Below, piece by piece: positions 7,641 through 47,964 of a DNA stretch of 64,000 nucleotides (its first letter is position 1; each line of letters starts with the position of its first letter). Under the pieces are notes generated by a model, which saw nothing but the letters and a program-made list of their open reading frames with translations, ran no database searches and was not told where the DNA came from. Source of the stretch: Sclerodactyla briareus (taxonomy: Eukaryota > Echinodermata > Holothuroidea > Dendrochirotida > Sclerodactylidae). The stretch spans positions 124,001 to 188,000 of the forward strand of contig JAODTK010004998.1 of assembly GCA_026419785.1 (NCBI GenBank). The letters run 5' to 3'. The translations under genes were made by a program, and so were the position numbers.

Positions 7641-8545
7641 TTCAATTCGGTGGACCAAATATATGGACTTATATGGTTTTACAAGGTTTTCGACTTTGAC
7701 TCCTAGGACCTCTTTACCTCAGAAACAATGTGGTTTCATGTAACTCATCGTTGGGAAGCCCACAAACGGAGTATGAGTTCACCCAACCATGCCTGTCAGA
7801 ATCATGCTACACCCACACACAACGCAACACACATATGCACACCCAGTCAACATGACTATATCCCTCAACAGATTCAAGGATCAAGATGTTACATTAGGGC
7901 TATGGTTAATATTGAACGTCTGTAAGCAAGCCTTACCCATCCGAGTATCATCATCCCTGGTAGGCCATTCGCAGAGCAGTCATACCTGTCCTCAAGTTCA
8001 ACCAACCTTGACTGTAACCAAGGTACCATCTGTACAGGGAGAAAAAGTACAAAGGAATTTATAATGTATCTTCTGCCAAAAGGCAAAAATTGTCATTTAC
8101 CTGCCTATTTTAAATGACGTTTATGCTCATATTTTGACTCATGATTTGTCATCAAGTGACATTCAGCATCCGACCTAGATATACTGTCTAATTTTCAATG
8201 GTTAAGAAAAAATGTTTTCTTAAAATTCCCAACCTCATCACCTACGACCTATAAAGACACAAAAACAACATTTCATTTGATTTTGACAACTCAAAAACAC
8301 TCATGTGACCACAAGCCTAAATACGGCCGGATTGCTGATAGGAAGATAGCGGGCCTCGACAGGTGGTTAGAGTTGGAGTGGCATGGCATGCAGTTGGGTG
8401 ATGTGTCGTGTTTTCTTTCCTGGGGAAAACATATTTTTTCGCTAAGGATGGTCCTTCACCTTAATGGTACAGGGGCATCAGTTGTTAATGTGTGGTTAAT
8501 TTTCTGTGTGGAGGGGTTGTTGAACAGATTGGGGACAAGGGTTTT
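7641..8545. repeat. Segmental duplication carrying exon type C, copy 1
   Basis: This block is repeated at about 9266-10325 with the same order: eroded TR2 end, a CATGACTATAT..TCAAGGATC tail, exon C, a 160-bp AT-rich segment ending cattTGATTTTGACAACTC, then tacggccgg..gatgtgtcgtg and ggttgttgaaca. The AT-rich segment is single here and doubled in copy 2. Confidence 0.8.
7937..8029 (-). CDS. Duplicated short exon, type C (zinc-finger-locus linker), copy C1
   Basis: On the minus strand a ccctgtacag acceptor is followed by AT GGT ACC TTG GTT ACA GTC AAG, and a GTAAGG donor ends the exon 93 nt later. Two leading bases and one trailing base give phase-1 junctions on both sides, so the exon is symmetric. 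The start reads DGTLVTVKV. Further on, an ELEDRYDC..ANG run and a DDDTRM run are legible, but not in one frame. Its match to 9583-9673 and 46286-46374 includes the splice sites. By analogy with type B it would encode an acidic linker ahead of a zinc-finger array. It may belong to a paralogous gene extending beyond the left edge. Frame noise could be assembly error or decay. Confidence 0.55.
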
Positions 8546-9265
8546 CACCAACCGAAGAGGCTCGGATCAGTGACGAAGTGATGGCCCGGAAGCGGGAAGG
8601 AAGGGCGGGAACGCCCATGTGGGGTAGTATTCATAAATTCAACATATTCCACATCCTTGTTTCTGTTTTTGGATCTATCTCATTTATTCAACGTACCCCA
8701 CATGGACTATGCACCAGCCTAGCACAAGGAACCCGGAGGCGGGTGAGTGCCATCACGTCTGGTTAAATCTGAGGGGTGGCCGACCGTAATGGAGGAGTCC
8801 CCAGCAACCTGCCTGAGGCAGCCCCGACCAAGGAACACACCGTGTGATCTGACTGCCCCAGAGTCAGCTAGGTCGTATCGGGGGCAAGAAAAAACGGCGA
8901 GAGCTCTACGACGAGGGAGGCGCTCCTTGCGGAGAGAATTGTCCCGGGACCTGGATCACTGTGCCGAGTATGCGACCGCGGGACCTGAGTCGTAAGGCCG
9001 CGGTGGCCGGAACTGCATAACGGAGGCCGGAGCCACGGAGGCCGGAGCCGCAAACCGCAAAGGCCGGATCCGTTGAAACCGGAAACGCAAAGGCCGGAGT
9101 CGCGGAACCACAGTCTGGTAACCGGCGCAGCCACGAACTGCGGAGGGCCACGCCGAGCTGCGCCCTGAGGCCACGAAAGCCTGGGCCACACAATTCCGGA
9201 GGCCGGAACCGCCGGAGGCTCTCGTGAGCCTGAGGCAGGGGCTCGATGTCGACGCATATACAGTA
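8546..9265. other. GC-rich, CpG-rich insert between the two copies of a duplication
   Basis: This stretch separates the two type-C duplicates and has a very different composition from everything around it. From about 8985 to 9230 it carries a minisatellite of short GGAGGCCGGAGCC-type units separated by cgcaaa-like spacers. Upstream of that, a plus-strand frame (8789-8995) reads MEESPATCL..APESARS, followed by an arginine-rich stretch and ending in ATAGPES. The minus strand is also open for 146 codons (8868-9308). Open frames on both strands are expected from the GC bias, so I do not call a protein. It could be an inserted element or a CpG-island promoter; I cannot tell which. Confidence 0.5.
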
Positions 9266-10325
9266 AACCTCCAACTTGGTTGGACCAATCTAAGGCTTTC
9301 ATGTTCACGAGGTTTTCAGACTTGACCCTTGTGACCTCTCACCGGGCCTCACGCCCCAAAACAATGTGGGTTCATGTATTCATCGTTGGTAACCACTACG
9401 GAGTATAGGTTTCACCCCACCCAGGGCCAGTCAAGTCAGCATGCTTACGAATTCACAGACACAACACACACCCCCCATAACGCACACACATCAACATACT
9501 ATCCCCTCACGCTGGCGTCAAGGAATCAAGATGTCCAAATTATGATATGGTCAATATTGAACAGTCTGGAAGCAGGACTTACCCATCCGAGTATCATCAT
9601 CCATGGTAGGACATTCAGCAAGGCAAGTACTACCTGTCCCTCAAAGTTCAACCTTTGACTTTACCCACACCATCTTACATGGAAAAATAACACAAAGGAT
9701 TTATTTATCTGCCAAAAGGCGAAAAATTGTCACTTACTGCCTATTTAAATAAAATATAACTCATTCAAGCGACCTCGACACATACTGTCCTACTTTTCAA
9801 CAGTGAATACAAAATGATTTTCCAAAATTTCGCAACCTCATCACCTACGCTAGAAAGGCACAAAACAACATTTCATTTGATTTCGACAACTCCACACTAC
9901 GCACTACGCCTATTTAATTACAAATAAAATATTACTCATTCAGACAGCCGACCTCAGATACACACTGTCCAATTCAACAGTGATACAAATTATTTTTCTA
10001 ATTTTGCACCTCTCACCTCCGCCCTAGAAAGACCACCAGAACCACATTTCATTTGATTTTGACAACTCACACCTCAATGTGACCACAAGCCTCAATACGG
10101 CCGGGTTGCTGGTAGGAAGAATAGCGGGCCTCGCCAGGTGGGTTGGAGTGGCAGGTGCATCAGTTGGTGGATGTGTCGTGTTTCTGGGGAAGGAGGTATT
10201 TTTCGCTAAGGATGATCTTCACATTATGGTACAGGGGGCCATCAGTGTTCGGGCAGTTACTATTAAATGTGTGGTTTAATTTCTGTGGGGAGGGTTGTTG
10301 AACAAGATTTGGGGGCGAGGGTTTA
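9266..10325. repeat. Segmental duplication carrying exon type C, copy 2
   Basis: Second copy of the block at 7641-8545, same orientation. The AT-rich segment is tandemly doubled inside it (about 9735-9895 and 9908-10070), each ending in cattTGATTT.GACAACTC. The order of parts is otherwise the same. Confidence 0.8.
9583..9673 (-). CDS. Duplicated short exon, type C, copy C2
   Basis: Minus-strand exon homologous to 7937-8029 and 46286-46374. The acceptor here reads ccatgtaag rather than the ctgtacag of the other copies, and the donor is ggatgg|gtaagt. The start GATGGTGTGGGTAAAGTC corresponds to DG.LVTVK and the end GATGATGATACTCGGATGG to DDDTRM. The exon is 91 nt instead of 93, so it is out of frame as written. 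The non-standard acceptor neighbourhood and frame loss mean this copy may be a relic. Confidence 0.45.
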
Positions 10326-10899
10326 AGGTTCCACTACTGAGTTGTGAAAAGCCAGTCCACACAGTGGTACTAGATCGGGCCCCCAAAAGGCTTTAGATAC
10401 TATTAGCGAGACATTTAAGCGAGCTGTCTTTTTTCTGCACTAAGTTAAAGTATTCATGATCAATTTATGAGTTCTGAATTTTGGGCCAGGAACGCAAGCC
10501 TGACGCAGTTGAATTGGGGCTCACATGAAAGTTCCTCAGTCAAAGTTTACATTCCAAGGTATGGTTGCTTACTAGTATCGGACAGATCCTCTTCGTGGCA
10601 TTGGGGGTGGAAGTTTCGTGTTAATGTGAGGTCTTACTTGAATGCAATTAGAAGACAGATATTGTATTATTTGCGCCAAGTCTGTTTGAATGTGAATTCC
10701 TCAAACGGGTATTCCTAGATCCTTTATAGTCTAATGTTGTTATCGTTCTCCCAACAGCTCGGAAAGCAATAACTCTTCTTTCTCGACATGCTATTCAAAG
10801 CTTCCAGTAAGCGTACAATTATAAAGGGTTATTCCATTAACAGATATTTTGGTCTGATGGTAGTAGTGTAGCCAGAAACTGACCTGTCACCCAACATTG
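10326..10899. other. Unique sequence, no gene seen
   Basis: An 83-codon plus-strand frame at 10467-10718 has no recognisable feature. No repeats shared with the rest of the window were noticed. Confidence 0.3.
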
Positions 10900-12480
10900 T
10901 TTCCTTCGCAGCGCATTTCTTTTCTTTCCATTTTCTTACGCTAATATTTAGATTTAGACGAGTTCTGAGTAGTGATCCAATTTCGAGGATAATGTCGAGT
11001 TCAGTAAGCTTAGGTCAAGTGATCAACTCTAGCATAGTTTTCTATAATATCGTGATCACTAGCTATAATACAGCTTTCGATGTGTCTTGTTCTGTCACAT
11101 TCCACAGGAGCGTTGAGCTCTTTCTGGTTTCTCGAGGGCCGATTTGAATGGCATTTCCTGATAATGATATGGTGTACTGTACATTTTTAGGAGTTTGAAT
11201 GCCTGTTGCTCATGAAGGGTGCCATTGGTAAAGTTAACAAGTTAATGAAGGTTTACGTTCCTGTAAAGCGTCGCGTAAGACAAAAAGCCTTCTTGGATGA
11301 GAAGGGAGGTTTTTTTTCTCTGGCCGTTCTTCTGGTTCTTTGTCTGATTTAGATCGTTTCACAGTTCAGCAGAGGCTAGGTCCCAATGTTTATAGTTTCT
11401 GGTGCTAAGCTACATTTCGGGAGCATCTTGCCTCTGATCTGATATGAAGGATATCCTTGTGCATTCTCCTTATTTTAGGGGAAGAAGAAGTAAAACAGTC
11501 ATTGGTCAAGTGTTGTTGTCTGATTCTTGTAATACAATCAGCGATAAGTCAGGGGTGGTTAGCGTTTCTCAATAACTCTATTTGGTAGGTACTCACGCAG
11601 CTACCTTGTGGTTGGTGTTCCTCATCATACTATATTTGGTTAGGTATTCACCAGCGACCTGTGGTTAGTGTGGTCCTCATAATTTTTAAACTTCATTGGT
11701 AATATAATATGTTCGCCTGAGGATAAACTTCACCAAACTCACTGGTTTTGTGAATCTGTGAACTATAAATACCTACTCCATATTGAACTTTGCACCCCCC
11801 TGCGCCATTGAACAACTGGCAACTTTTTACAGCATTGCCGGGTTGGTCAAACCTATCGTCTTTCTCATTTTTCCAGGCAGCTTTGCCATATTGTCAATAG
11901 CGCGGGTGGGGTGCGAATGTTTAAAGTGATTTTGATTAAGGTTTTTTTAAACTTGTTCATGGATTTTGAGGGCGCTTTCCTTATTTTTTTTTCCATAGGG
12001 GCCAGTGCCTCAAGTTTTGTAAACGCTGTAGATTGACCTTCAGAATATTTCTTCTCGTAGAGAGTTATTAATGATTTGAATTAGCCTTCCTGAAGAATGT
12101 TGTCTTTGTCAGCATTCCAGAAGAGTCTTGATTTATATTTCAAGAACTGTATGCGAATTCCTTTTAGGCATCTGGTTTATTCTTTCTCTTTGGTCTGTTT
12201 GTGGTTCCAGGGTCTTTCATGAGGATTTTGTCCCTTCCTGACCCTTTTTTTTCACGTTTTTTCCTAAACTAATAGTTGCATTTACCGCTTTACCCCCATA
12301 AAACCCAACCATTGAAGAGAACAGGTCTGGGCCTGGCCCTTCCTCCCCAACTCCTGGTGCAAACCCACAAAGCTTTGCCAGACATGTGTTTAGTGACAAC
12401 AGCCTCAACCTCAGTGGGGTCCATCTTGCGTTTCACCCAAACAAGCTGTAATGCTTGAAGAAGCTTCAGGCTTATGGTCT
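10900..12480 (-). pseudogene. Broken coding region of unknown family
   Basis: Several separate minus-strand stretches read like protein rather than chance: KRKMDPTEVEAVVTKHMSG near 12430-12370, FWNADKDNILQEG near 12120-12080, LITLYEKKYSEGQSTAFTKL near 12070-12010, EKDDRFDQPGNAVKSC near 11870-11820, HEQQAFKLLKMYSTPYHYQE near 11210-11150 and TRHIESCIIASDHDIIENYA near 11100-11040. They lie in consistent order but in different frames. The opposite strand shows no comparable reading. I do not recognise the family. It could be a decayed element or a host gene affected by sequence errors. It lies between exon types C and A of the left series, in what would be an intron. Confidence 0.3.
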
Positions 12481-12804: not shown

Positions 12805-12956
12805 CTCCATTTACGGTTGGTAAGGGTCCACCTGGTCGGCTGCCTGCCCATTGGTGATGTCGTCATTTACATGTAGGCTGGTAGAGTTTACCAAGCCGTC
12901 TGTATGCTCATTGGTGACACCATCTTTTGTCTCCATCTTAAACTGTACAATGTGAC
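12805..12956 (-). CDS. Duplicated short exon, type A (zinc-finger-locus linker), copy A1
   Basis: On the minus strand a ttattctgtag acceptor precedes GT CAC ATT GTA CAG TTT AAG. The frame reads HIVQFKMETKDGVTNEHTDG and continues open for about 47 codons to DQVDPYQP before a TAA six bases from the ggag|gtattg donor. The 152-nt length is one or two bases off a symmetric phase-1 exon, so the terminal stop may be a sequencing artefact. Homologues lie at 13315-13460 and 47875-47964. Linkers of the IV.(L/I)K.E(T/P) type are common ahead of C2H2 arrays in animals. That function is inferred from resemblance and from the shared locus, not from a recognised domain. Confidence 0.6.
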
Positions 12957-13004
12957 CTACAGAATAAAAATACAGGGATTTACAGGACCTCAGGATTCCC
13001 TGTA

Positions 13005-13314: not shown

Positions 13315-13460
13315 CTCCATTCAGGCTGGTATGGTCTTAACCCGGTCGCCTGCCTGGCTCATTGTTACTTCATTAATTTAAGCTGGTAAGCTTACCAGGT
13401 CGTCTGTTTGTTCATTGGTGATGCCATCCTTTGTCTCCATTCTCAACGCCACAATGTGAC
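13315..13460 (-). CDS. Duplicated short exon, type A, copy A2
   Basis: Homologous to 12805-12956. A ttctctgtag acceptor precedes GT CAC ATT GTG GCG TTG AGA. The frame reads HIVALRMETKDGITNEQTDD, then LVSLPA, before a stop. The far end (ccagcctgaatggag|gtagtg) keeps the donor. The length is 146 nt versus 152 in copy A1, so the second half is out of frame. A recurrent catgactacatagattcct tail follows about 100 bases downstream. It belongs with A1, C1 and C2 to a left-hand series that repeats the A-then-C order of the right-hand series. Confidence 0.55.
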
Positions 13461-15520: not shown

Positions 15521-15524
15521 CATT

Positions 15525-15675: not shown

Positions 15676-15679
15676 TTTT

Positions 15680-18240: not shown

Positions 18241-18339
18241 TAGACATCGCATGTAACTAAATCACAATAAAATCAATTAGTATTTTGGGCAGAGAATGCA
18301 TTTCAGCACCATTGTGTGAAATATCATACCACAAGCCAA

Positions 18340-18479
18340 AATGCTTAGTGATTCCTTACTCTTTCTGACAACCTACAGCCATACACAAGGACAAATGGAG
18401 TTGTCAACGCAGCTCGTTATGGAAACAGCCTATCTCTTGATAAGATAGCTAGCTACACACTAATTTAGAGAGGATGTTC
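18340..18479 (+). repeat. Leader of the TGACCT satellite, copy 2
   Basis: acaagccaaaatgcttagtg, gattccttactctttctgac and aacctacagcca match the leader words at 5262 and 40808 and precede the long TR2 array. Confidence 0.65.
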
Positions 18480-21400
18480 AGACTTTGACCTTTCGTTACC
18501 CTCAAAACAGTAGGGTTCATGAAATCATCATCGGGAACACACATACCAAGTATGAGCCTTCATCCATTCGGGTGGGGTCAAGTTCTCATGTTCACAGGAG
18601 GCGATAATGGCCAAAATAATTAACTTTTCACAATTTTTCTGATTTTTGAGAACCAAAATTCACCCCGAACTATACTAAAAACAAAAAAAAGGCTGCCTGT
18701 ACTCCGCCATAAGAAGCCTACACACCCAATTTCAACCCATCCAACCAACCATTCGCGACTTATCGTGTTCAAAAAGGTGTTTTCAGAGCTTTGACCCTGA
18801 TCCGACCCCAAAACAATAGGGGTTCATGTACTCTCATGGGGAACACAACATACCAGGTATGAACTTCATCCATCCATGTTAGGTCGAGTTATCAGGTTTC
18901 ACATCCAAAATTGGCCCAATTATTTACTTTTCACAAATTTTTCTATTTTTGACGAAATTCACCCTTAGTGATTCCTTGCTCTTTCTGCAACCTATACTAA
19001 CACCGAGACATGGTAGATTGCACCAGCTCATTTGGGCACATAACATCTGAACAAATTTCCCATTATCCCAACTGACCAATTGGTCCATACTCTTGATAAG
19101 AAAGCTACACCACTGAATTTTCAAGATTTTCAGACTATACCTATGGTGACCTCAGATGACCTCCATTCTGACTGACCCCAAAACAATAGGGTTCCAGTAC
19201 CCATTGTGGGAATTCACACAACCAATATGGCCCTCATCCATACAAGTGAAGTGGAGTTATCATGTTACAAGCAAAAATTGGGGCGAAATAACTCAACTGA
19301 GTTTCCCAAAACCTTTTCCGAAATTTTGAAACAAATTCACATCACCCCGCCTATCACCAAATCGGGTTCCTGTCATCCCCATAAGGCAGCTACACACCAA
19401 TTCACCTGACAGACGACCACCATTCTGGAACTTATCATGTTTTACAGTTTTTCCACACTTTGGACCTCTGGTGACCTCAGACGACCTCTGACCTAACCCC
19501 AAAACCATAGCGTTCATGTACGCTCATTCCTGCTGGGGACACACATACCAATTATGACTTGATCCATCACTAGGGTTGAGTTAATCGTTTTAACGAGCTA
19601 AAGTTTGCCAAATTATCATTTTTTCACAATTTTTTGTTTCTCCCAATCTGACCCCCGATTGTAAACCGAACAATAGGGTGCCTTTACCCTCATAAGAAGC
19701 TGCATACTGATTTCAACCTGATCGAACCAGGCATTCTTGACTAATAGGTTAACAAGAACTTGACCTCATATGAACCGTTTGACCCGACCCCAAACACTAG
19801 GGTTCATTTACTCATTATGGGGAACCCATATACCAATATGAAACTGATTCAATCAAGTGGGGTCAAGTTTATTGACTTTTACAAAATTTTTGTTTTTTGA
19901 CCAAAATTCACCACCCACTCGACCTATACGCAAAACATAGGGTTCCTGTACTTACTCCCCATAAAAAAAAGAAAGCTCACACCAAATTTGAACCAGATCA
20001 GAGCAACCATTCCTGGCTTTATCCGTGTTCACAAGTTTCCAGACTTTGACCTCTGTGACCTCAGATGACCTGTGACCTGACCCCAAAACAATAAGGGTTC
20101 ATGTACTCTCAATGGGAACCCATACCAAGTAATGAGCTTCATCCACCAGGTGGGGTCTAGTTAGCGTGTTCACAAGCCCAAATTGGCCATTTTTTTTAAA
20201 AAAAATCTCAACTTCTCACAAATTTTCTATTTTTGAGACCTAAAATTCCACCCCGACCTATACCAAAAACAAATAGGGTTCATGTACTCATCAGGGTAAG
20301 CACACATAGCCAGGTATGAACTTCATCCATCCATGTGGGTCGATTTATCCATGTTTCACAAACCAAAATTGGCCAAATTATGGACTTTTCTATTCACAAA
20401 TTTCTATTTTTGACCAAAATACCATACAACACCCTTAGTGATTTCCTTTACTCTTTCTGACACCCTATGAGCTATACACATAACATGGTAGATTGCATGC
20501 ACCAGCTCATTATGGGGCCAACATCCCATCTGACAAATTTCCCATTTAATCCCAACTGACCACTCGGTTCCTATACTCTTGATAAGAAAGCTACACCTGA
20601 ATTTCAAGAGTTTCAGACTCTGACCTATTGTGACCTCATGATGACCCCCTCTCTGATCTGGACCCAAAAACAATCTGGTTCATGTACCATTGTGGGGAAC
20701 ACAACAAACAAATATGGCCCTCTCCCCATACAGTGAAGTTGAGTTACATGTGTTAACAGCCAAAAATTGGCAAAATCAACTAATTTACAACTTTCGAAAT
20801 TTTGAAAACAAAATTCACCCCGACCTAACCAAATCGGGTTTCCTTCATCCCCATAAAGGCAACTACACCCCACATTTCACAACTGATCATACCGACCACC
20901 ATTCTGCCTTATCATGTTTACAATTTTCCTCCACCTTTACCTCTGGTGACCTCAGACGACCATTGACCTGACCCCAAACTAGGTTCATGTACTTCATTCA
21001 TCATGGGGGACACACTTACCAAGTATGAACTCTTTGATCCCTCCCACGAGGTTGAGTTATCGTGTTAACGATCAAGTTTGCCAAATTAATCACTTTTCAT
21101 TTTCCCAATTTTCTCCAAACCTGACCCGCCGATTTAAACCAGAACAATAGGGTTCCCTGTACCCCTCATAAGAAAGCGACATACTGAATTTCAACCTGAT
21201 CGAACCAGGCATTCTGGCTCTATAGGTTTTTTTTAACAAGACTTTGGACCTCATATGACCTTTGACCCGACACACAAAAAAGGTTCATGTACTCATTAAT
21301 GGGAACCCCATATACCAATATGAACTTGATTCATCCAAGTGGGGTCAAGTTATTGACTGGTTAAACAAATTTTCTATTTTTGACCAAAATGCACCCCCGA

Positions 21401-21985
21401 ACCTATACAAAAACAATAGGGTTCCGTACTCCCCCAAAAAAAGCTACACACCAATTTGAACCAGAATCAGACCAAACCCTTCGGGATTTATCTCGTGTCA
21501 CAAGGTTTTCCAGGACTTTGACCTCTGGTGACCTCAGTGACGCTGTGGGCCTTACCCCAAAAAAGGGTTTAATGTACTCATCTGGGGAACACACATACTC
21601 AAGTAATGAGCTTCACATCATCCATCCAGGTGGGTCGCGTTATCGTGTTCACAAGCCAAAATGGGCCAAATTATTAACTTTTCACAAATTTTCTATTTTT
21701 GACCAAAATTCACCCCGACCTATACCAAAAACTAATGGGGTTCCTGTACTTTCCATAAGAAAGCTACACACCAATGTGAACCAGATCAGACCAAACCTAT
21801 CTGGACTTATCGGTTCACAAGGTTTTTCAGACTTTGACCTCTGGTGACCTCAGATGACCTCTGACCTGACCCCAAAACAATCGGGTTCTGTACTCATCAT
21901 GAGGAACCACATACCAATTTGAGCTTCATCCATCCAGGTGGGGTCGAGTTATGGTGTCACAAAGCCACGGGGTCACTACACCATA
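18480..21985 (+). repeat. Long TGACCT satellite array (TR2) with higher-order structure
   Basis: About 11 copies of a dimeric unit of roughly 290-340 bp. Each unit has two halves that both open with acaatagggttc..tgtactc, so it descends from a doubled monomer of about 160 bp. One half carries close-set TGACCT words (the best example is 21834-21872), the other cacaaattttctatttttga. Variant units recur in the same order at a longer spacing: leader-bearing at 18960 and 20430, cagacgacc at about 19480 and 20955, tcatatga at about 19760 and 21250, and the full TGACCT form at about 20040 and 21515. The higher-order period is therefore about 1475 bp. No gene is present; apparent frames are by-products. 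Confidence 0.88.
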
Positions 21986-22580
21986 ATACATCACACACAC
22001 TGTCATACTGCATAGATTTCCTCTGACTTATCGTCACGGAATCAAAAATGGCCCTCTGGCCCAAAGTCGAACTTTGGAACAAAAAAATTCTGAACAACCC
22101 CGAAGGTACGTTCTATTAGACCATCATTATGCTGGAACTCAGCACTATGGAACTAAATTTGTAGGTATATAAGATTTAGTGTTTTTTTTACCTAATTGCC
22201 CTTTGGCCCAACTGGCCCTTGGCCAAAATTCTGTAACCTCCTGACCCCCCCGCCCCCCCATGGCCCTCTATCCAGTACCTTACATGTAATCTTGGAATAA
22301 AAAATAATGAAGCGTGTGGAAGGATATGCATTTCAAGTACATTGTGTGAAAATTCATAAATGGGCCGCTGGGCCCAAGTGGGACGCATGGACCAAAATTT
22401 CCCTGAACACCCGAAAGTACGCTGATAGACCATCATCATGACCCAACATCCAGCGCACTTGATCACATTTGTATGAAAAGTAGCGTTTTGCAGTTTGCCA
22501 TTTATTGGCCTTGTGCCCCTTAAACAGATTCGAGATTCATCAAGTACGAACATTTCGTGGCCCAAAAAGCATAGGTTTAC
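21986..22580 (+). repeat. Satellite tail followed by GGGCCC repeats (family D), copy 2
   Basis: Starts with the recurrent tail (cacactgtcatactgcatag, atttcctctgacttatcgtc), then two to three family D units with ccatcattatg and catcatcatgacc words and several short C or G runs. Confidence 0.65.
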
Positions 22581-26719: not shown

Positions 26720-29497
<2,778 letters not shown>

Positions 29498-32131: not shown

Positions 32132-32644
32132 TCAATTCAACAAACTGGTCATATAGGCTACATACCATAGGGAACCCGCCCTTGACTGTAGGTCCAACAT
32201 CTGCTTGAAAGTGTCGCTGATTTTGTTTTGTGGATGTGAAAAATTATCGAGTTCTATGAACAGCAATGTTACAAATTTGGCCCCCTGACTCACTGTGGAG
32301 TTGATTAACATTTGTAGAGTCATGAAATTTTCTTCCAGTGAAGCTATGGTATCCTGGTTCATCTTTTCCCGAGAGTATACCACAAGCCTGACATATTGAC
32401 CTCCTTGAAGTGGAATATCTAGGAACAGAACTCTGGCTCCAAAAATGGCTGAAATTGTCATGAAGATGATCGCTGCAATGAATTTCTGGCTCAGAATTAC
32501 CCCCCAAGAAGTTTTTTTTTCCATCAAGGAGGGTCCTTGTTTCGTCGTTGTTTTGGTATTTCTAGTTGTTAAAACAGTATGTGCAACCTGGCAACATACT
32601 CCATGCTTCATTATTGCTCTGGTTTTGTTCAAAAAACGCTCCAT
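32132..32644 (-). CDS. Unrecognised 170-residue protein with one membrane segment
   Basis: The longest clean single frame outside satellites and GC-rich sequence. It starts MERFLNKTRAIMKHG and ends WYVAYMTSLLN at TGA. A polar, Lys/Thr-rich N-terminus (1-54) is followed by a hydrophobic segment at about 55-76 (FIAAIIFMTISAIFGARVLF), then a soluble-looking region with an NST sequon at 115-117 and a second, less hydrophobic stretch GAKFVTLLFIEL. A basic N-terminus before a single membrane segment suggests a type II membrane protein, but no enzyme family is recognised. In-frame codons continue upstream of the ATG for about 14 codons to a stop near 32690, so the start is uncertain. It lies inside the inferred zinc-finger intron on the same strand. 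It could be a small intronless gene or one exon. Confidence 0.4.
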   Translation of the reverse strand: MERFLNKTRAIMKHGVCCQVAHTVLTTRNTKTTTKQGPSLMEKKTSWGVILSQKFIAAIIFMTISAIFGARVLFLDIPLQGGQYVRLVVYSREKMNQDTIASLEENFMTLQMLINSTVSQGAKFVTLLFIELDNFSHPQNKISDTFKQMLDLQSRAGSLWYVAYMTSLLN

Positions 32645-32699
32645 TTTAAGAATGTTCTCATCTATTTGTGCATTCGCTTTGTAAAAACGCTCATTTTTT

Positions 32700-33310
32700 T
32701 TTCACCTAAATGCAGTTCACTCTTGAGAAAGTAACTAACCTAAACAACACAGGGGTGAGAACGTTTGAATCACAATTTAGCACCAACTAGGGCTGAAATT
32801 CAACATTCTGTACATACTAATTCTCGATATTGTAAGAATTTTGAGGAAAATGTCATGAAAATATAACAGCATCTCAACGGAAACCCTGACTTTCCAATTG
32901 GTACATGCACACACACACGCGTGTGCAGGGGCGAATCAACCTTCTTTGATCCAGCTCGAGAAACGTTGTTCTTCTGGACAGGCCACTAGTGTACATGTAT
33001 GGGCATGTCACAGGGGTGAAATAAGAGATCGAAGACTCTGCTAATTGAATTGACATTTTCAGACTTTGTTAACGAGAGAATCCGATGAGAAAAGACTTGA
33101 TTGAATTTCTGATAGATCTGCTTCAATAAAATAGCTCATCTTAGACTACATCCATGAGTTGACTACCTGAAGTCATTATGGTGAGTTAGAACTCGATAAC
33201 ATGCGGAATGATATTACTAGTAACGGGCTGTTCACGGGACTAAGTTGGTATAGTAGAGTATCTTGTCAGTTGATATGGGTTTGCTATCCTGATTCCTGTC
33301 CACAGTATCC
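32700..33310. other. Unique non-coding sequence
   Basis: Contains a short CA / CG patch near 32908-32926 followed by gcaggggcgaa. No gene is seen. Confidence 0.25.
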
Positions 33311-37689: not shown

Positions 37690-37778
37690 CTGCAGTTAGG
37701 ATTGAAGAGTCTGTTTGATAACTATATTCTCATTGGTGATGCTCCTCTGCTCTGTTTTAACTGACACAACAACTTTAC
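37690..37778 (-). CDS. Duplicated short exon, type B (KTE linker), diverged copy B1
   Basis: Minus-strand sequence gtcagttaaaacagag reads VSVKTE, followed by IVIKQTLQS-like sequence and a ctgcag|gtacaa donor. The acceptor position has acat in place of the acag of the other copies, so splicing here is doubtful. It aligns best with 42195-42294, sharing the ggattgaagag/ggcttgagag end and the donor. It is the B copy nearest the zinc-finger exon. Confidence 0.4.
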
Positions 37779-37984
37779 ATGTGAAAAAAAAAAGTCATAC
37801 ATAATATAGTGTGCCTGGGAAGTGTTCAGAGTATGGAAATGATTAATTATGTGGAAACCGGATTCATTATTGTTAATAATGAGATGATATCAACATGCAT
37901 AACAGATTTTAGTGCAGAAGATGTTACCAGATTCTAGTATATTGAAATTATTCAAATCTGCCATAGCTGAAGCTGATGGGGCTC

Positions 37985-38272
37985 ATACCAAAGAACATAC
38001 TCATGCCGTTATGTTATGCCAACAGATCCCTGTCTCTCTATGTAAGTAACTGGGAAGGGTTCTTACTACAGAACTAACACCTCATATCATCCAGTTATGC
38101 CAACAGACTCTCGTTCTCTATGAATAAAAACCATGGGAAGGGTCTATACTACAGAACTACACCCTCATACATTCTGTGATGCCAACAGACTCTAGTCTTC
38201 ACTATCAGAACACCACTGAGGAGGGTCTCTACACTACAGAACTATACCTCATATAATACTGTGTTATGGTAT
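37985..38272 (+). repeat. 84-bp satellite (TR1), third small array
   Basis: About 3.5 copies with catccagttatgccaacaga, ctctctatg and tacagaactatacctc words. It lies far from the main array, inside the inferred zinc-finger intron. Confidence 0.85.
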
Positions 38273-40688: not shown

Positions 40689-40772
40689 CTCCAGTCAGGC
40701 TCGAAGAGTCTGTTGGGAACTCTGCCTGATCAATGTCACTGTCTGGCTCCGTCTTAGTTGCAACAATATCAC
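40689..40772 (-). CDS. Duplicated short exon, type B, intact copy B2
   Basis: The clearest linker exon of the window. The minus strand has a ctcttctacag acceptor and then GT GAT ATT GTT GCA ACT AAG ACG GAG, reading DIVATKTEPDSDIDQAEFPT and then DSSSLTG, before G|GTTAAC. It is exactly 84 nt, with phase-1 junctions on both sides, and is fully open. It could therefore be skipped or repeated without changing frame. IKTEPDSD-type acidic stretches occur upstream of finger arrays in many animal C2H2 proteins; the VKTE core also resembles a sumoylation motif, an inference only. The donor GTTAAC is weaker than the GTAAAC of other copies. A TGACCT-satellite leader starts 36 bases upstream. Confidence 0.7.
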
Positions 40773-40807
40773 CTGTAGAAGAGAGCAAAATATAGTGCTT
40801 TGTGTTT

Positions 40808-40955
40808 TACCAGAAAGCCAAGAGGCTTGTGATTCCTTGACTCCTTCTGAAAACCACCTAGTCAGAAACAAGGACAAAGGGAGATTGTACCAACTCATTA
40901 TGGGCAACATAACATCTGACAAATCTGCCCCCCCCCCCCCCCCATAAGAAAGCTA
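40808..40955 (+). repeat. Leader of the TGACCT satellite, copy 3, with a C run
   Basis: ccagaaagccaagaggcttg, gattccttgactccttctga and gattgtaccaactcattatg match the other leaders. A C run (40928-40943) interrupts the sequence where other copies have tttccca. Confidence 0.7.
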
Positions 40956-41905
40956 CACACAATTTCAACCTGATAGACCAACGCTTCTGGACTTATCGCG
41001 TTTACAAGTGGCAGACTTCCACCTCTGGTGACATGTGACCTGACCCTCGAATCTAGAGGGTTCATTACCATCATGGGGACCATACATACAAAGTATTAGC
41101 CTCAACCTCCAGGTGGGGTGATTTTATCCTGTTTACAAGCCAAAATTTGCCCAAATATCAACTATTTCACAATTTCATATTTTTTCACCAAAAATCACCC
41201 CACCCTGAACCAAAAAAACTATAGGGTTCCTGTACGACCAACATTCTGGATTTATCGTGTTTACAGGTTTTGACCTCTGTTGACCCTCAGACCTGACCCA
41301 AACATAGTGTTCTATTTTTGACCAAAATTCACCCCTGACCTGAACCCAAAACAATGGTTCCCTGTACTTCCCATACAAAGCTATACCCATATTTCAACTT
41401 GATGATCCGACCAACCATTCTGGACTCAGCGTGTTTACACGGTTTTTCAGACCTTTGTTGTACCTCCTACCTGACCGCAAAACAATGGTTCATGTACTCA
41501 ATCATGGGGAACACCGTACCAAGTCCTGAGCTTCATGCATCCAGGTGGGGTCAGTTATGTTACAAGCCACAACTGGCAGAAATAGACTTTTCACAATTTT
41601 CTATTTTTGACCACAATTCACCACCGACCCGAACCAAACACTATAAGCTTCTGTACTCCCATAAGAAGCTATACATCAAATTTCAGCTTCCTCATACCAA
41701 CCATTCTGACTTTACCTCTGGTGACTCTGACCTGTCCCCAAAACAATAGGGGTTCATGTACTCCATGGGGAACACACAATACAGTATGAGCCTGATCTAC
41801 TCTGACCTGATCAGTTCTCGTCATTTACAGGCTGGGCGTCACAGACACACACCCACAATGTGAGTGCATAGATTCCTCTGACCTCGTCAAGGAATAAACA
41901 ATTAC
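40956..41905 (+). repeat. TR2 satellite array with tail
   Basis: About three dimer units (cataagaaagctacacac, caggtggggtgattttatc, ctatttttgaccaaaattca), ending with the recurrent tail ggctgggcgtcacagacaca..cctctgacctcgtcaaggaat. Confidence 0.8.
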
Positions 41906-42194
41906 CAGAAGAAATTGGCCTATTCCCACCAAAAACAATGTCTGTTTTACAATTTTTCACCTCTCTTGACCTGAGATGAAACTGACTCAACCGTAAACTA
42001 TTAGGGTCTCATCCTACCTATTCTGGGAACAAACTGCCAAGTATTAGCCTCATCCACCAAGGAAGGTCCAGTTATCATTTCACCAGCAAAGTGTCGCATC
42101 CACATATAAAATTACGCACATACAATGCAGTTTCTCAACTGTAGTCCAGCGATTGAAGAACCTAATAACGGACCAGTTGGACAATAAGATTTAC
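41906..42194. other. Intron sequence with eroded TR2 words
   Basis: ctcttgacctgagatgaaac and ttatcatttcaccagcaaag are degenerate TR2. Nothing else is recognised. Confidence 0.4.
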
Positions 42195-42294
42195 CTGCAG
42201 TTAGGCTTGAGAGGCTGTCCTGATCTACTATATTTCCCACTGTGATGTCCTCTGCTCTGAACATTTACACCACATGAAACAACCACTACGTTAC
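42195..42294 (-). CDS. Duplicated short exon, type B, longer variant copy B3
   Basis: The minus strand has a ctttctacag acceptor, then GTAACGTAGTGGTTGTTTC, and a ctgcag|gtaaat donor. The exon is 100 nt. In phase it reads NVVVVSCGVNVQSRGHHSGK and stays open, but one base is in excess for a symmetric exon. A shifted reading (EDITVGNIVDQDSLSSLTA-like) is closer to the family, so at least one indel is likely. It pairs with 37690-37778. Confidence 0.5.
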
Positions 42295-42609
42295 CTGTAG
42301 AAAGAGTAAAACATTATATTGTGTTGCCTGGACGGGCTTTCAGAGTAAATGTATACAATGAATAACTGTTTACCCTTGATTTTATTGTTCATATATATCT
42401 AACAGATAGGGTTAGGAATTGATAGAGGGGCTGAGCCTCTTTGGACCGCCTAAAGGGGCGTTGATGAGCCGCTGTGACACACTGCGTGATGTCAGGCTCG
42501 AGTCCAACGATTGGGCTGATTGGGTACATGCTGCGATGCCGAGACGTCCCTCTAAGGTAGGAGCCAGCTGGTTTAGTTATATTGATCCGGACATTGTCCC
42601 TGTCCACAC

Positions 42610-43320
42610 TAGATGGGTTTGAGTTATCGTGTAAACTTCAAGCCAAAAGTGGCCGAAAAATATTGACTTTTCCCAAATTTTCTGATTTTGCCCAACATTC
42701 ACCCACGACCTAAACCAAAAACATAGGGTTCCCGTAACTTTCCATGAGAGAGCTAAACAACAAATTTCAACTTGATCTCACCAACCATTCTGGACCTTAC
42801 ATGGTTTCCAGACCTTGACCCCTGGTAACCTCATATGACCTCTGACCTGACCCCAACAGATCGTTCATGTTTCATCATGGGACCACACAGACCAGGTATG
42901 CGCTTCATCCATCCAGGTGGGGTTGATTTATCATGTTTACAAGCCAAAATATTGACTTTTCACAAGTTTTCAATTTCTTATTTTTGACAAAATTCACCCG
43001 CAACCAAAACGATAGGGCTTCCTGAACACTCCCTAAAACAGCTATACGCACATTTCAACTTGATCTTAACCAACCATCTGGCATATCCTGGTTTACAAGG
43101 ATTCACGACTTTGACCTCTCTTGTGACTTGAATGACTTCTGACCTGACCCCAAACAAGTAGGGATCATGTACTCTCCTACATGGGGAACGCACATACCAA
43201 GTATGAGCTTCATACATCCAAGTGGGGTTGAGTAATCGTGTTTACAAGCTGGGCGTCACCAACATACATACGCACTGACATGAATCATAGATTCCTAGGC
43301 TTCTCAAGGATCAAACATTT
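42610..43320 (+). repeat. TR2 satellite array with tail
   Basis: About two dimer units (ttcaagccaaaagtggcc, caatttcttatttttgacaa, cataccaagtatgagcttca), closing with gctgggcgtcaccaacatac and tcatagattcctaggcttct. Confidence 0.8.
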
Positions 43321-43489
43321 ATCATGTGGACCAGGATTGGGTCGGCGGTCAAATAGACTAGGAAGTTGTTATCTACACCATGTCCATAATTCTGTTTTGG
43401 TGGTATTAATTGTGTTGAATAATATTTTTGGGCAATAATCAAGGGCATTAGTAATATTGGCTAGAAGGTAGGTCGGCTTCTGAGTAAAT

Positions 43490-43690: not shown

Positions 43691-43754
43691 ATGATCTGGT
43701 GACCACTTTCCCCATGATCCAAGGTAAGTAGATGAATGGATGGGTGGATGAAAT

Positions 43755-43905: not shown

Positions 43906-44075
43906 ACACCAAGGTGAGGGGACGATATTTTCCAGTTGCCTTATTTTCTTCGGTTCCAGTCCCCAATGCTATGTGCCGAACGAAATCAACAGTTATTTTT
44001 GTAATTGGTCATAACCCAGCTGGGAATCAACCGTGCCCAACTTCCTTTTCTCACCCTAGGCACACCAGATCCATA
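43900..44075 (-). mobile_element. tRNA-derived SINE-like copy 1
   Basis: Read on the minus strand, a ggttgattcccagctggg stretch (around 44022-44038) resembles a Pol III B box and T-arm. It is followed by tatgaccaattacaaaaata and aactgttgatttcg, the layout of tRNA-derived SINE bodies (B box, then a conserved tgttgcctcctcgc-type core). The A box is not clear. The copy lies inside a duplicated segment together with a B exon. Confidence 0.45.
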
Positions 44076-44119
44076 CTACAAACCATACTCTCAGTAAATA
44101 CACTTTGAGGGAAGTTTAC

Positions 44120-44204
44120 CTCCATCATGCTTTTGAAGAGTCTGTCATGTCTTCTGCTCGATCAATGTCACTGTCTGGCGCTGTCTTCATTGGCACAATA
44201 TTAC
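44120..44204 (-). CDS. Duplicated short exon, type B, copy B4
   Basis: The ctctttctacag acceptor is followed by GT AAT ATT GTG CCA ATG AAG, reading NIVPMKTAPDSDIDRAEDMT and then DSSKA before a TGA three codons from the end. The donor is atggag|gtaaac. The exon is 85 nt, one more than the intact 84-nt copy, and dropping one base near its end would restore frame. Its duplicate lies at 44638-44718. Confidence 0.6.
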
Positions 44205-44279
44205 CTGTAGAAAGAGTAAAATATAGTGTGTTGTGTTTCCCAAAAGGTGTTTCATATACAAAGACCTTGACCATTACCT

Positions 44280-44425
44280 TACCTACCATACCCATTGTTT
44301 GCACTAGACCTCTGTACTCATTGTTTTGCACCTGAAACCTCTGTACTCATGGTTGAAACAAGAAAATCTGCATCATTTGTTGGAACTCATAACTTCTATT
44401 ATTCATTGTTGGAAGAAGATGAGAG
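44280..44425 (+). repeat. 28-bp minisatellite (TR5), copy 2
   Basis: About five units with ctctgtactcattgtttt and gcacctgaaac words, in the same relative position as the array at 43755. Confidence 0.7.
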
Positions 44426-44620
44426 GCCACACCAAGGTGAGTGAGAATAATTTTTCAGTTGCCTTTCCCCCTTTCTCTCTGTTTGAGTCCACATACTATG
44501 TGCGAGGAGGCAACAGTTTTTTTTGTATTTGGGCTGACCCAGCTGGGAATCAAACCCTTACCCCCTTCCTTCTCATCACAGCCAGATCCTACTACAAACA
44601 TACTCTCAGTAGGAAATATA
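44425..44620 (-). mobile_element. tRNA-derived SINE-like copy 2
   Basis: Minus-strand gggtttgattcccagctggg includes GGTTTGATTCCC (44545-44556), a good B-box match. It is followed by tcagcccaaatacaaaaaa and actgttgcctcctcgcacat, matching copy 1. It was present before the local duplication that also copied the B exon and minisatellite. Confidence 0.5.
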
Positions 44621-44637
44621 AGTCCAAGTGAAGTGAC

Positions 44638-44718
44638 CTCTAGTTAGGCTTGAAGAGTCTGTTGAGTCTTTTGCCTGATCAATGTCCGTCTGGCTCCGTC
44701 TTAATTGCAGAATATTAC
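44638..44718 (-). CDS. Duplicated short exon, type B, copy B5
   Basis: The acceptor tctacag is followed by GTAATATTCTGCAATTAAG and ACGGAGCCAGACGGACATTG, i.e. NI.AIKTEPD.DIDQAKDST-like with two small losses. The end reads DSSSLT. The donor is agag|gtcact. At 81 nt it lacks three bases relative to the 84-nt form, split over more than one place. Confidence 0.55.
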
Positions 44719-44813
44719 CTGTAGAATGGAGTGGGATAGTTTGAATATGATATGTCATGGTCTCTCATCCTCACATCGATCATTCTCAGTAGGAATATTA
44801 TTGGGAAAGTTAC

Positions 44814-44893
44814 CTTGTGTTGGACCTGAATGGTCTGTCAGGTCTCCTGATGATCATGTCACTGTCTTGCTCTGTCTATTGTCACAATATTAC
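44814..44893 (-). CDS. Duplicated short exon, type B, copy B6
   Basis: The acceptor cttctacag is followed by GTAATATTGTGACAAT, then agacagagc..agacagtgacat, a NIVTIKTEPDSD-like start with small losses. The end gacagaccattcaggtcc gives TDHSGP. The donor is acaag|gtaact. Length is 80 nt. It lies 95 bases from the neighbouring B5 exon. Confidence 0.5.
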
Positions 44894-45114
44894 CTGTAGA
44901 AGAGAGTATATATAGTGTTTCGTGTTTCAAAAAGTGATTTTATATTAAAGACCTGACCATTATATTGAAGTGAACTACTGCATCATATTTCACACTTGAC
45001 CATAACTATGCGCTGCTTCTACACCACAGGACATAGTACTAAATAACAAGGAAGCGGCCAATGTTAGCTCCACATGTATTAGCAGCATTTGAAATGATCC
45101 GTCATGTCTGTTCA

Positions 45115-45540
45115 AGAATTGCCTCTAAAGGCGAGAATTGCTCTCATGCAGAGAATTGCTTTTAAGATCCTTCAACTCATATATAAAGCAATCAACTGCA
45201 TGCTCCCGTTTTCATCCAGAGCTTGTTCAGCGCATGTTCCTTCCAGATCTCTATAAAGTCATCTTCCAAGCATCAGCCTAAGTAATGGTTCGCTCATCCA
45301 CCAAGTTGTAAACGTGATTCCGTCTTCGGCCTCTGCTGCTCCTCACTTTTGGAATACCCTCCTGACTCTGTCCGTCTAACTCTGACTGTAGCTACTTTTA
45401 AGTCTCATCTTAACACCTTTTCTTTTCACTCAGTTTTTCTGTCTGACTGTATTCTCATTATGTTTTTTTAAATCTGTAAAGCACCTCGAGCTTTTTCAGT
45501 TAGGCCTCTATCAGTCCTCAGTATTATTAACTATATTTTT
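45115..45540 (+). mobile_element. LINE 3' end (CR1/Rex-like), truncated
   Basis: The plus strand reads RIAFKILQLIYKAINCMLPF, then a PSRSL patch, then SAAPHFWNTLL, then ATFKSHLNTFSFHS, and ends with tctgtaaagcacctcgagc. This is the usual C-terminal order after the reverse transcriptase of CR1/Jockey-type LINEs (RI.FKIL...YK, AP..WN.LP, FKS.LKT.LF). It has several frame interruptions. It is inserted in the intron between exons B6 and B7: intron words (gctcatcc..cattctgagtagg) resume just after it, matching 44763-44792. Confidence 0.7.
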
Positions 45541-45594
45541 GCTCATCCATCATTCTTGCATTCTGAGTAGGCATAGTATTTAAGGAGAGTTTAC

Positions 45595-45680
45595 CTTTAG
45601 TTGGACCTGAAGGAGCCTGCCAGGTCCTTCTGCCTGCTCAATGTCCCGTCCTGGCTCTGTCTTAATTGCCACAATGTTAC
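45595..45680 (-). CDS. Duplicated short exon, type B, copy B7
   Basis: The acceptor cgtctacag is followed by GT AAC ATT GTG GCA ATT AAG ACA GAG CCA, reading NIVAIKTEPGRDIEQAEGPG, and the frame stays open to the ctaaag|gtaaac donor. The exon is 86 nt, two more than the intact form, so the exit phase is off by two as written. It is the B copy furthest upstream. Confidence 0.6.
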
Positions 45681-45769
45681 CTGTAGACGGGAGTGAGTGA
45701 TCGAGTGTTCTGTTCTCTATTAACACAGGGATGTCATATTATAAGACATTAAGACATATATAGACATCA

Positions 45770-46000
45770 TACTGAAGTATACTACTGCACACATATATAA
45801 ACTGAACCTACATATGCTGCTGCTTACACAGGATTTCTAATATCTAGACATTTAGACATTACAAGACAGCATACTGAAGCATATATGCAGACATATATAA
45901 AATTAACCATAACTATGCTGCTGCCTCTACAACACGGAACAAACATAGATAACAAGGAAGCAACAAGGAGTCCAATGTTGCTCGTATTGGAGCATTTGAT
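45770..46000. repeat. Intron duplicate flanking exon B7
   Basis: accataactatgctgctgcc, ctacaacac and gataacaaggaagc repeat 44998-45060 (accataactatgcgctgctt, taaataacaaggaagc). Together with the exons this shows a roughly 430-bp unit duplicated before the LINE inserted. Confidence 0.6.
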
Positions 46001-46285
46001 TTGGGGGGACAGTCCATGTGGAGAGGGGTCTTCCTTGATGTCCGAACGACCTGACAGAATGAAGGTACTCTTACTAAAAAAGAGAGTTACACATAAACTT
46101 TCAACAGGATCAGAGCAAGCCTCGTACTCAATGTGTCTAAGATTTTTATACATAGCATTCTTCTGTGTTTACAAATGTTCAGACTTTGACCCGGTGACCT
46201 CTGACAGGATGAAGAAATCCAAGAAGTACATTATGGGAATTGTTCAATATTGAACAGTGATGAACAGTCTGAAAGCAGAACTTAC

Positions 46286-46374
46286 CCATTCGAGTATCAT
46301 GATTCCTGATGGCCACTATCGCAAGGCAGTCATACCCGTCTTCAAGTTCACTTTAACTGAAACCAAATCACCAT
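46286..46374 (-). CDS. Duplicated short exon, type C, copy C3
   Basis: The minus strand has a ctctctgtacag acceptor, then AT GGT GAT TTG GTT TCA GTT AAA GTG, reading DGDLVSVKVNLKTGMTALR before the frame is lost. The donor is gaatgg|gtaagt. At 89 nt it lacks four bases relative to 7937-8029. It sits upstream of the B exons and downstream of exon A3, the same relative order as in the left series. TR2 remnants (tttgacccggtgacctctga) lie just downstream. Confidence 0.55.
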
Positions 46375-46509
46375 CTGTACAGAGAGAAAAGAATACACGG
46401 AATTCTGCTTGTATTTGCGAAAAAGGCAACCTATGTCACTACTGCCTATTTTTTATTCCTTGTCAAAGGCAAAAGGCCATCATGCAATCATGCAATTGTG
46501 TGTGTGTGT

Positions 46510-46678
46510 CAGCGTTTGAAATAGCTGAACACTTGTGTAGCAATTGGGGGGAATTTAGAAAACCCTCATGCTTCTATGTTTTTGTGTAAACTGACTGCTA
46601 TGGCAATTCCGAAAGTGTGTAGCAAACTTGCTCATTTGAGAGCATTTTGCGATGCTACACCAGCTATTTCGAACGCTG
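46510..46678. mobile_element. 169-bp hAT-type miniature element inserted in a TG repeat
   Basis: The left end CAGCGTTTGAAATAGCTG (46510-46527) is the inverted complement of the right end cagctatttcgaacgctg (46661-46678) with one mismatch, and gtgtagca / tgctacac extend the inverted repeat. Both flanks are TG repeats (tgtgtgtgt left, tgtgtgtgtg right), as an 8-bp duplication of a TG target would give. There is no coding capacity. Confidence 0.7.
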
Positions 46679-46745
46679 TGTGTGTGTGAGTGTAGGTGAG
46701 TGTGTGTGAGTGTGTGTACATGTGTACATGTTTGCATGTTTGTGC
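46679..46745 (+). repeat. TG-rich microsatellite
   Basis: tgtgtgtgtgagtg, gagtgtgtgtgagtgtgtgt and acatgtgtacatgtttgcatg. Confidence 0.85.
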
Positions 46746-47740
46746 ATATCGTTGGAAGTTGCGAGACATCTATCAGAATCGAGTAGCCCGTGATTTAAAA
46801 AATAACATGTATTTCCGGTATGGTTAGGATACCTATTGTTTTTGGTGTCAGTTGGGGTTCATTCGAGGTCAGCACAGCCAAGACCCTGAAATTTCTTTAA
46901 TGCATTCTGTAACTCAGTGTCCTTGCGTCCTGAACCCGTCAATTCGAATAAAATGGAACCAGGAGCTCCCTTAATACATTGTCCACAACAGCCTGCTAAT
47001 GGTACCCATGGACAGCACAAAGTAAGGCTCCATCCTGCCATGGTGACCATGCCTAACTAGAAATAAAGCACATCCTTGAACACTAGGTTAACATGCAAGA
47101 CTCACAGGTATTCCTTTAACCTCCTAGATACTGAATGGACTGGCCAAGGTCACTGTCCCAGTGACCTACAAACTCTGTATGCTAGCCCCAGGCATGGCAC
47201 CTGGCTGCTTAAACTCACAATTAAAACTGGAAGGAAGAAATGACATTCATTCACAAAGTGTGTTTGGCAGCCATGCCTGAATCAGGAAGTCCTCATAAGC
47301 TGCCTTTATTCCATACGGTATCGAGGTACTGTTACTCCTGAGCCTTTGACTGACCCAATTTCCGTGTGCTTTGCTTCACACTGAGTGGCTATTACTTAAT
47401 AAACAAAGCATTCCTGGACTCAGTGTTTTCCCTCTAAAGAAGATTTGGCAGTGGTCAAAATTGCCATTCTCCTCTCCATTTTGAAAATCTTCGTGAGTCA
47501 AACTTTCCTGGGTCACTAGTTTAGCAGTACAAAACCCTCTTCTTTTTACTTATGCCTTACAGAGCCATTAGTGAGGCACTGCGTGGTCAACTGCTTAATC
47601 AGCCCAGAGGAAAACCCTGATCGTGATATTGACACTCTATTGACCCATATGTACATCTGATCTGCTCTCTTGACAAATTCAGAAAAATATGGGCACTGGT
47701 ATACAGTACCAAGTATATGAGCTTACTGTATCAGCTTCAC
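46746..47740. other. Intron or intergenic sequence, no gene seen
   Basis: No exon or known repeat recognised. A 63-codon minus-strand frame (46859-47050) is not persuasive. Confidence 0.3.
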
Positions 47741-47874
47741 AAGCAAAACATGTACGTGACGCACACCACATGTTATGACTACATAGATGTCCTTTCCAAA
47801 TCGAGGAAAAAACAATTCATTGGGCATTTGATATGGCAATGCAATTGTACCGAGAAAGAGGCATATTCACTAAC

Positions 47875-47964
47875 CCTCCATCTAGCTGGTAGGGGTCGTG
47901 CAGGTCTCTGTTCGTTCATTGGTGATGCCATCTTTTGTCTCGCATCTTCAACCGCACAATTGAC
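47875..47964 (-). CDS. Duplicated short exon, type A, shortened copy A3
   Basis: The minus strand has a tttctagtag acceptor, then GTCAATTGTGCGGTTGAAG, homologous to HIVALK, followed by gacaaaagatggcatcaccaat (DKRWHHQ as written, TKDGITN in the family frame). The second half of the longer copies is missing, and the exon ends near gatggagg|gttagt at about 90 nt. The catgttatgactacatagat tail follows downstream (47767-47786) as in A1 and A2. It is the most upstream exon I can recognise in the right series. Confidence 0.45.

Follow-up and report, generated by a model that had tools for sequence, protein, structure and literature searches.

What use could a gene make of a row of short, duplicated exons set ahead of a zinc-finger array? 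The question is raised by a 64,000-nucleotide stretch of DNA from the holothuroid Sclerodactyla briareus (contig JAODTK010004998.1, positions 124,001 to 188,000; hereafter the window, with coordinates counted from its first letter). The locus is a C2H2 poly-zinc-finger gene on the minus strand, with a 29-finger exon, and 13 cassette exons (three of type A, three C, five B and two D) are arranged on the same strand in two parallel series. The answer that we prefer, tentatively and with rather less than even confidence, is that the gene would encode a poly-zinc-finger repressor, to which the duplicated exons contribute a number of SUMO-acceptor modules.

Two exon series and a finger array

Read on the minus strand from 47964 to 37690, the right series runs A, C, B1 to B4, D1, B6 and D2, and is followed by the finger exon. 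It opens with A_R (47875-47964; profile E value 2.5e-33; acceptor TAG|GT), which is without the second half of A, and continues with C_R (46286-46374; 1.6e-44), with a CAG|AT acceptor and a GTAAGT donor. Next come B1 (45595-45680; 2.5e-38), which reads GNIVAIKTEP, B2 (44814-44893; 2.7e-32), with several deletions, B3 (44638-44718; 3.7e-36) and B4 (44120-44204; 2.9e-39), in which MKTA stands where IKTE is expected. D1 (42195-42294), of subtype D, has an unreadable core and matches the D profile at 3.4e-47 and the B profile at 2.1e-6. The intact exon B6 (40689-40772), with the weak donor GTTAAC, translates to GDIVATKTEPDSDIDQAEFPTDSSSLTG when the G of the preceding exon is counted, and D2 (37690-37780; D profile 5.2e-41; core VVSVKTE) closes the series, with no AG acceptor as sequenced. 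The left series lies downstream of the array, at 13460 to 7937 on the minus strand, in the order A, A, C, C: A_L1 (13315-13460; 3.1e-62; LRME at the core), A_L2 (12805-12956; 1.3e-64; FKME), C_L1 (9583-9673; 6.1e-43; AAG before the exon) and C_L2 (7937-8029; 3.8e-46; VKVELED when indels are allowed for).

The modules encoded are ca. 28 to 31 residues long (ca. 50 in type A). The consensus of B is GNIVAIKTEPDSDIDQAEDLTDSSSLTG and that of C DGDLVTVKVELEDRYDCLANGLPGMDDDTRM, while the A consensus opens with GHIVQLKMETKDGITNEQTDDLV and has its second half repeated. A_L2 contains two versions of one half-module, DGVTNEHTDGLVNSTSL and DDITNGQAADQVDPTNL (again allowing for indels), as if two cassettes had fused. 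When the cassette profiles were run over the window, no further convincing exon was found beyond the 13. This exon anatomy is well supported, and it upholds the preliminary description of copied linker exons in two series around a finger exon: all 13 were located, and symmetric phase 1-1 exons with mostly good acceptors do precede the finger exon. The details have shifted. The earlier count of 11 to 12 falls short of its own listing, which sums to 13; types A, B and C stand, but the seven B exons have become five B and two D (42294-42195 and 37780-37690); and the CAG|GT or CAG|AT starts do not hold for the three A exons (TAG), C_L1 (AAG) or D2 (CATG, without an AG).

Splice sites were picked by eye before they were scored. 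AG is present at 13 of the 14 acceptor positions, and by pyrimidine content all 13 rank among the best 16% of AGs on that strand; for 11 of them the tract is equalled by at most 3.6% of 4041 minus-strand AGs, which places them in the top 4%. The acceptor of the finger exon, at 29497, is among those that score as good. Eight of 13 donors rank within the top 5% of 4230 GTs; the C exons have strong donors, those of B3, B6, D2, A_L1 and A_L2 are weak, and the weakest belongs to the intact exon B6.

Symmetric phase, a mark of alternatively spliced cassettes, is present. B6 is exactly 84 nt long, open in phase 1 and symmetric (phase 1-1), as described beforehand, and the consensus lengths of B (84), A (150) and C (93) are all divisible by three, the consensuses being partly hand-made in that frame. 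Cells might differ in which of the A, B, C and D exons they place before the fingers, a reading that we consider doubtful. The phase of B6 and of the A, B and C consensuses agrees with it, as does the division between weak and strong donors; yet sequence errors blur donor scores, intron lengths (95 nt between B2 and B3) give no hint of mutual exclusion, and the constant inclusion of every cassette predicts symmetric tandem exons equally well. The earlier argument that an open exon of 84 nt could be freely spliced in or out carries little weight, given how dense the indels are in exons and repeats alike.

The finger exon begins at 29340-29497 (minus strand; CAG|AT acceptor; read by eye) with a linker opening DEWTSM, frameshifted as sequenced, and the array itself occupies 26984-29345 on the same strand. 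It contains 29 C2H2 fingers of 28 residues in tandem, of the form C-x2-C-x12-H-x3-H and joined by TGEKP linkers. It is the only array detected by the finger profile over the window, with no fingers elsewhere; beyond 26984 the text looks like degenerate fingers by eye, whereas the profile reports none there. Against Pfam, the typed consensus array matched zf-C2H2 (8.5e-26) and zf-H2C2_2 (4.6e-34). Among 28 full units, 89 of 102 readable zinc-ligand codons are retained (87%), and omega relative to the consensus is 0.29 for structural codons, 0.77 for contact codons and 0.73 for the rest. In the customary numbering of finger helix positions, entropy is highest at -1 (3.3 bits), followed by 3 (2.6) and 6 (2.4), with position 2 conserved (1.1). 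No open frame runs through the array, in which 86 deletion and 24 insertion events were counted over 2325 aligned bases. Between D2 and the finger exon, the minus strand also holds a 189-codon open stretch (32132-32701), long for such indel-rich sequence, with no Pfam family above cut-off.

The cassettes resemble one another to different degrees. Within families, profile E values range from 4e-41 to 3e-32 for the five B exons, 4e-46 to 6e-43 for the three C and 1e-64 to 3e-33 for the three A; these are partly circular because the same copies served to build the profiles, which take in 30 nt of flank on either side. Non-circular links between most copies come from a self-BLAST of the window and from a single-sequence search with B6, which recovered B3 (6e-11), B4 (7e-9), B1 (2e-6), B2 (0.009) and D2 (0.19), D1 being absent from the list. 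The B profile also matches D (2e-6 and 5e-6) and A (7e-5 and 2e-4), the D copies scoring far better with their own profile (3e-47 and 5e-41). Types A, B and D are thus shown to be related by DNA profile, and the A and B consensuses are alike as proteins beyond shuffles (p 0.0005). No profile linked C to the other cassette families at the DNA level; at the protein level it appears weakly related to them, its consensus aligning over the core alone with B, D2 and A (shuffle p 0.02, 0.02 and 0.05, with partly hand-made sequences). Type C tends toward GTT, AAA/AAG and GAA for V, K and E, and A and B mainly use GTG, AAG and GAG. This difference in codons between types, read directly from the alignment and small in number, may point to constraint at the protein level. 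Within the B family, exon identity (0.65 to 0.84 over 10 pairs) exceeds that of the sequence more than 40 nt upstream (0.33 to 0.59).

A shared core motif and its possible function

All types share a common core, x-(I/L/V)-V-x-psi-K-x-E, with acidic residues after it. When indels are allowed for, psi-K-x-E/D with trailing acidic residues can be read in 8 of the 13 exons, C_R being counted with one base missing in the x codon; the motif is one residue off in three (B4, B6 and A_L1) and unreadable in two (B2 and D1). A strict version of the core, [ILV]V.[ILVMF]K.E, occurs four times on the minus strand, three of them within cassettes (B1, D2 and A_L2), and not at all on the plus strand; a first-order Markov model predicts 0.34 per strand, with a maximum of two in 100 sequences. 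The widened pattern gave nine minus-strand matches, six of them in cassettes; the expectation is 2.2, and the highest count in 30 runs was six. Both patterns were composed after the exons had been seen; an earlier, differently built one gave 10 matches over six frames, four in cassettes. In the B family, IKTEPDSD carries six changes in 24 sites and the remainder 33 in 60, and 15 changes fall in the first 47 nt compared to 24 in the last 37 (permutation p 0.007), both comparisons being post hoc.

Two papers (PMC12630355, PMC3373386) give psi-K-x-E as the consensus for SUMO acceptors and describe the effect of SUMO on transcription factors as generally repressive. It is for this reason that a multi-SUMO tail, its length set by exon number, is the reading we favor. 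Each cassette module would be one SUMO-acceptor site. The fingers, with their diversified contact residues, would select DNA sites, and the acidic, repeated tail would gather SUMO and so recruit SUMO-dependent corepressors. Gain or loss of exons, by duplication or by splicing, could alter the number of acceptor sites with the frame kept, since the exons are symmetric. The joining of cassettes to fingers by splicing, the SUMO modification, the repression and any variable inclusion are what we infer from the DNA. If each cassette is indeed a SUMO site, exon count would be a dial for repression. A further step would be a SUMO load encoded digitally, with copy number and exon choice tuning repression apart from DNA targeting, and the lineage perhaps being one without KRAB; this we regard as speculative and quite unlikely. 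The locus also exemplifies how exons can be missed, as its cassettes are ca. 84 to 150 nt long and are separated by 8 to 18 kb from the finger exon that they precede.

The same modules could act in other ways. They may be short acidic peptides for corepressor docking, resembling FiNZ or KRAB exons, with copies that only raise avidity. The B cassette, acidic, 28 residues long and encoded by a separate exon upstream of the fingers, fits this description, but Pfam showed no KRAB or other domain in any of the four typed consensuses of the cassettes at E values up to 10, and the conserved K-x-E after hydrophobic residues is more directly explained by the SUMO consensus; we therefore think docking unlikely, if worth keeping in mind. 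Alternatively, the hydrophobic run (IVAI, IVQF, VVSV, LVSV) may itself be a SUMO-binding motif (SIM), so that the tail would be a multi-SIM array that reads poly-SUMO and is not tagged. A SIM has the pattern psi-psi-x-psi adjoining acidic residues, which the readable members of all four types fit, but a lysine directly behind the core is atypical of SIMs, and the idea appears improbable. A parallel exists in ZNF451, with 12 C2H2 fingers, which an excerpt of PMC12630355 credits with two SIMs.

Several observations weigh against SUMO-acceptor cassettes spliced to the fingers of a working gene. Indels break 12 of the 13 cassettes as well as the finger array, leaving B6 alone free of them, and B6 carries TKTE, which is non-canonical for psi-K-x-E. 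That motif is short and common, and the widened pattern was loosened to take in B4, B6 and A_L1. D2 has CATG in place of a CAGG acceptor, and so lacks an AG as sequenced; 8.2 kb separate it from the finger exon, and no start-codon exon or promoter was identified for the gene. Third-position excess is absent within the cassettes (15/11/13 changes by codon position in B, 6/12/11 in A and 7/5/6 in C) and there is no overall excess in the fingers (125/113/129). When two real copies, A_L2 and B6, are compared as proteins, their likeness does not exceed that of shuffles (p 0.54). The nearest 40 nt upstream of the B exons are 0.59 to 0.87 identical, sometimes above the exons themselves, and the flanks of A and C are conserved about as much as the exons, so the conservation of A and C may reflect recent duplication only.

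Decay, sequencing error and repeats

One possible explanation for these defects is that this zinc-finger family member is dying or already dead, its cassettes and fingers being neutrally decaying pseudo-exons and its repeats now meaningless. Points in its favor are the indels in 12 of 13 cassettes and all through the array, the lack of codon-position bias in cassettes and fingers, the broken D2 acceptor and the merely degenerate finger-like text past 26984 (judged by eye). Cassette indels were judged by length or gaps against a partly hand-made consensus (in D by length only); in the B cassettes they amount to five inserted and nine deleted bases in 416. The codon-position test on the B, A and C families (p 0.58, 0.36 and 0.60) is weak, as each family offers only 18 to 39 changes and these are mixed with sequence error, yet it gives no support for selection.

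Neutral decay usually leaves several substitutions per indel. The array has 110 indel events in 2325 bases (4.7%) and 3.5 substitutions per indel event overall; in its least-substituted quarter of columns, a quarter chosen for being low, substitutions (2.7%) fall below the indel rate, the reverse of that pattern, although this point is limited by a non-coding minisatellite (924-4250) whose low quarter behaves alike (2.1%). Two of the three non-coding minisatellite blocks have deletion rates (4.5% at 924-4250 and 4.2% at 37973-38268) close to that of the fingers (4.6%), as expected of an error unrelated to coding, whereas the third (6282-6923, 2.4%) has about half that rate, unlike uniform sequencing error. 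Insertion rates are 1.3% in the fingers and 4.9%, 2.6% and 1.7% in the three blocks. The zinc ligands are also 87% retained. On the whole we provisionally attribute the indels mainly to assembly error and read the locus as a mostly intact gene in an assembly of low accuracy; decay is judged the less probable account, if a serious one.

The left series starts 13.5 kb past the end of the finger array. In the self-BLAST, A is 77% identical between the two series over 167 columns and 66% over 390, and C 73% over 270 and 72% over 253; the left A and C copies are themselves tandem duplications that include their flanks. The tandem gene pair proposed earlier is borne out by a second A-C series in the same orientation but not by its remaining parts, as cassette and finger profiles found no B exons or fingers in the left series within the window. 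These data fit a paralogue that is partial or truncated by the window, with B exons and fingers that might lie past position 1, or else a fragment. A repeat match between 5274-6279 and 40806-41703 was considered as evidence of paralogous introns, and hence of a gene pair, and was set aside, because many copies of this repeat are present at 18318-22049.

That repeat belongs to a dispersed family found at 5268-6279, 18318-22049, 40806-43324 and 54900-55100, with a common edge near 5268, 18318, 20417 and 40806 and, by eye, abundant AGGTCA-like words. In addition, an 84-bp minisatellite is present at three sites (924-4300, 6282-6923 and 37973-38268), one block lying ca. 200 nt upstream of D2 and another ca. 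1 kb downstream of the left C exons. At 4760-4877 there is a run of 118 G (98% matches), possibly an assembly artefact.

With introns so packed with dispersed repeats and the minisatellite, the exons could be suspected of being part of a transposon or some repeat that has nothing to do with zinc-finger genes, the case against itself that the preliminary description had named. We find it unsupported and very improbable. The dispersed repeat stops outside the exons, at its edge at 40806 upstream of B6, and has cassette-free copies at 18318-22049. No transposase, integrase, reverse transcriptase or other transposon domain was found by Pfam in the 29 open reading frames scanned out of 277 of at least 60 residues; none of the 29 matched any family above the curated cut-off, three giving weak matches (Spectrin_7, EccB and C2-set_2). 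Rfam and tRNA scans of the window returned nothing.

Other zinc-finger loci and known systems

Searched with the finger consensus, the genome_contigs collection yielded 16 loci, all in records with prokaryote titles, and viral_contigs seven pattern matches, none of which was confirmed; DNA patterns of the minisatellite and of the B exon start had no match in viral_contigs. Over the 16 loci the only match to the cassette profiles was an insignificant one, of A on L010 (E 0.16); a loose motif pattern had eight scattered matches (two in L001, one in L002, three in L006 and one each in L009 and L013). Reading frames were examined for L001 and L006, the other 14 loci being assessed by finger count only. 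In L006, a 4.9-kb contig under a Pacebacteria metagenome-assembled genome (MAG), positions 1568-3209 hold an intact 13-finger C2H2 frame with an IKIEP frame just upstream; the contig is probably a eukaryotic contamination of that MAG. It resembles the present locus in having psi-K-x-E-P ahead of fingers, so this feature is not peculiar to the window, and differs in having a single motif, with no repeated cassettes seen and no match to the A to D profiles. The Candidatus Babeliales MAG contig L001 holds six consecutive open reading frames with multiple C2H2 fingers (2525-8053), each with an N-terminus that looks like a secretion signal by eye. It appears truly bacterial and not contaminating, because adjoining frames resemble ruvC, a replicative helicase and ribosomal protein bL9 (recognized by eye).

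Among known systems, KRAB zinc-finger genes have one or more short effector exons, and these precede a long array of C2H2 fingers whose contact residues are diversified. The present locus shares that layout and departs from it in that its modules are repeated and carry K-x-E cores; neither the four typed consensuses nor the linker matched a KRAB A box or any other Pfam family at E values up to 10. The Xenopus FAR (finger-associated repeat) subfamily, too, is described as having repeated modules N-terminal to its fingers, a likeness of description only. Among the matches listed by an open-licence literature search, no paper on FAR appeared, and none by its title dealt with SUMO-motif exons duplicated in front of a finger array; one candidate, PMC3784565, proved to be about a homeodomain protein. 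The B consensus had no match in PDB. The synergy-control/SUMO motifs of steroid receptors likewise place psi-K-x-E N-terminally in a DNA-binding regulator, with one or two copies according to an excerpt of PMC3373386, as against one site in each of several duplicated exons here.

The nearest known design would, in layout, be that of the FiNZ-ZNFs of cyprinid fish. An excerpt of PMC10547256 describes FiNZ, placed there in cyprinids only, as an acidic module of 28 residues in its own exon upstream of a single finger-array exon, and the short acidic module of 28 residues, in a separate exon ahead of the finger exon, is found here as well. By the same excerpt a FiNZ gene has one N-terminal exon, where the present locus has nine cassettes of four types. 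What would set this locus apart is the duplicated exon series, and not the occurrence of psi-K-x-E-P ahead of fingers.

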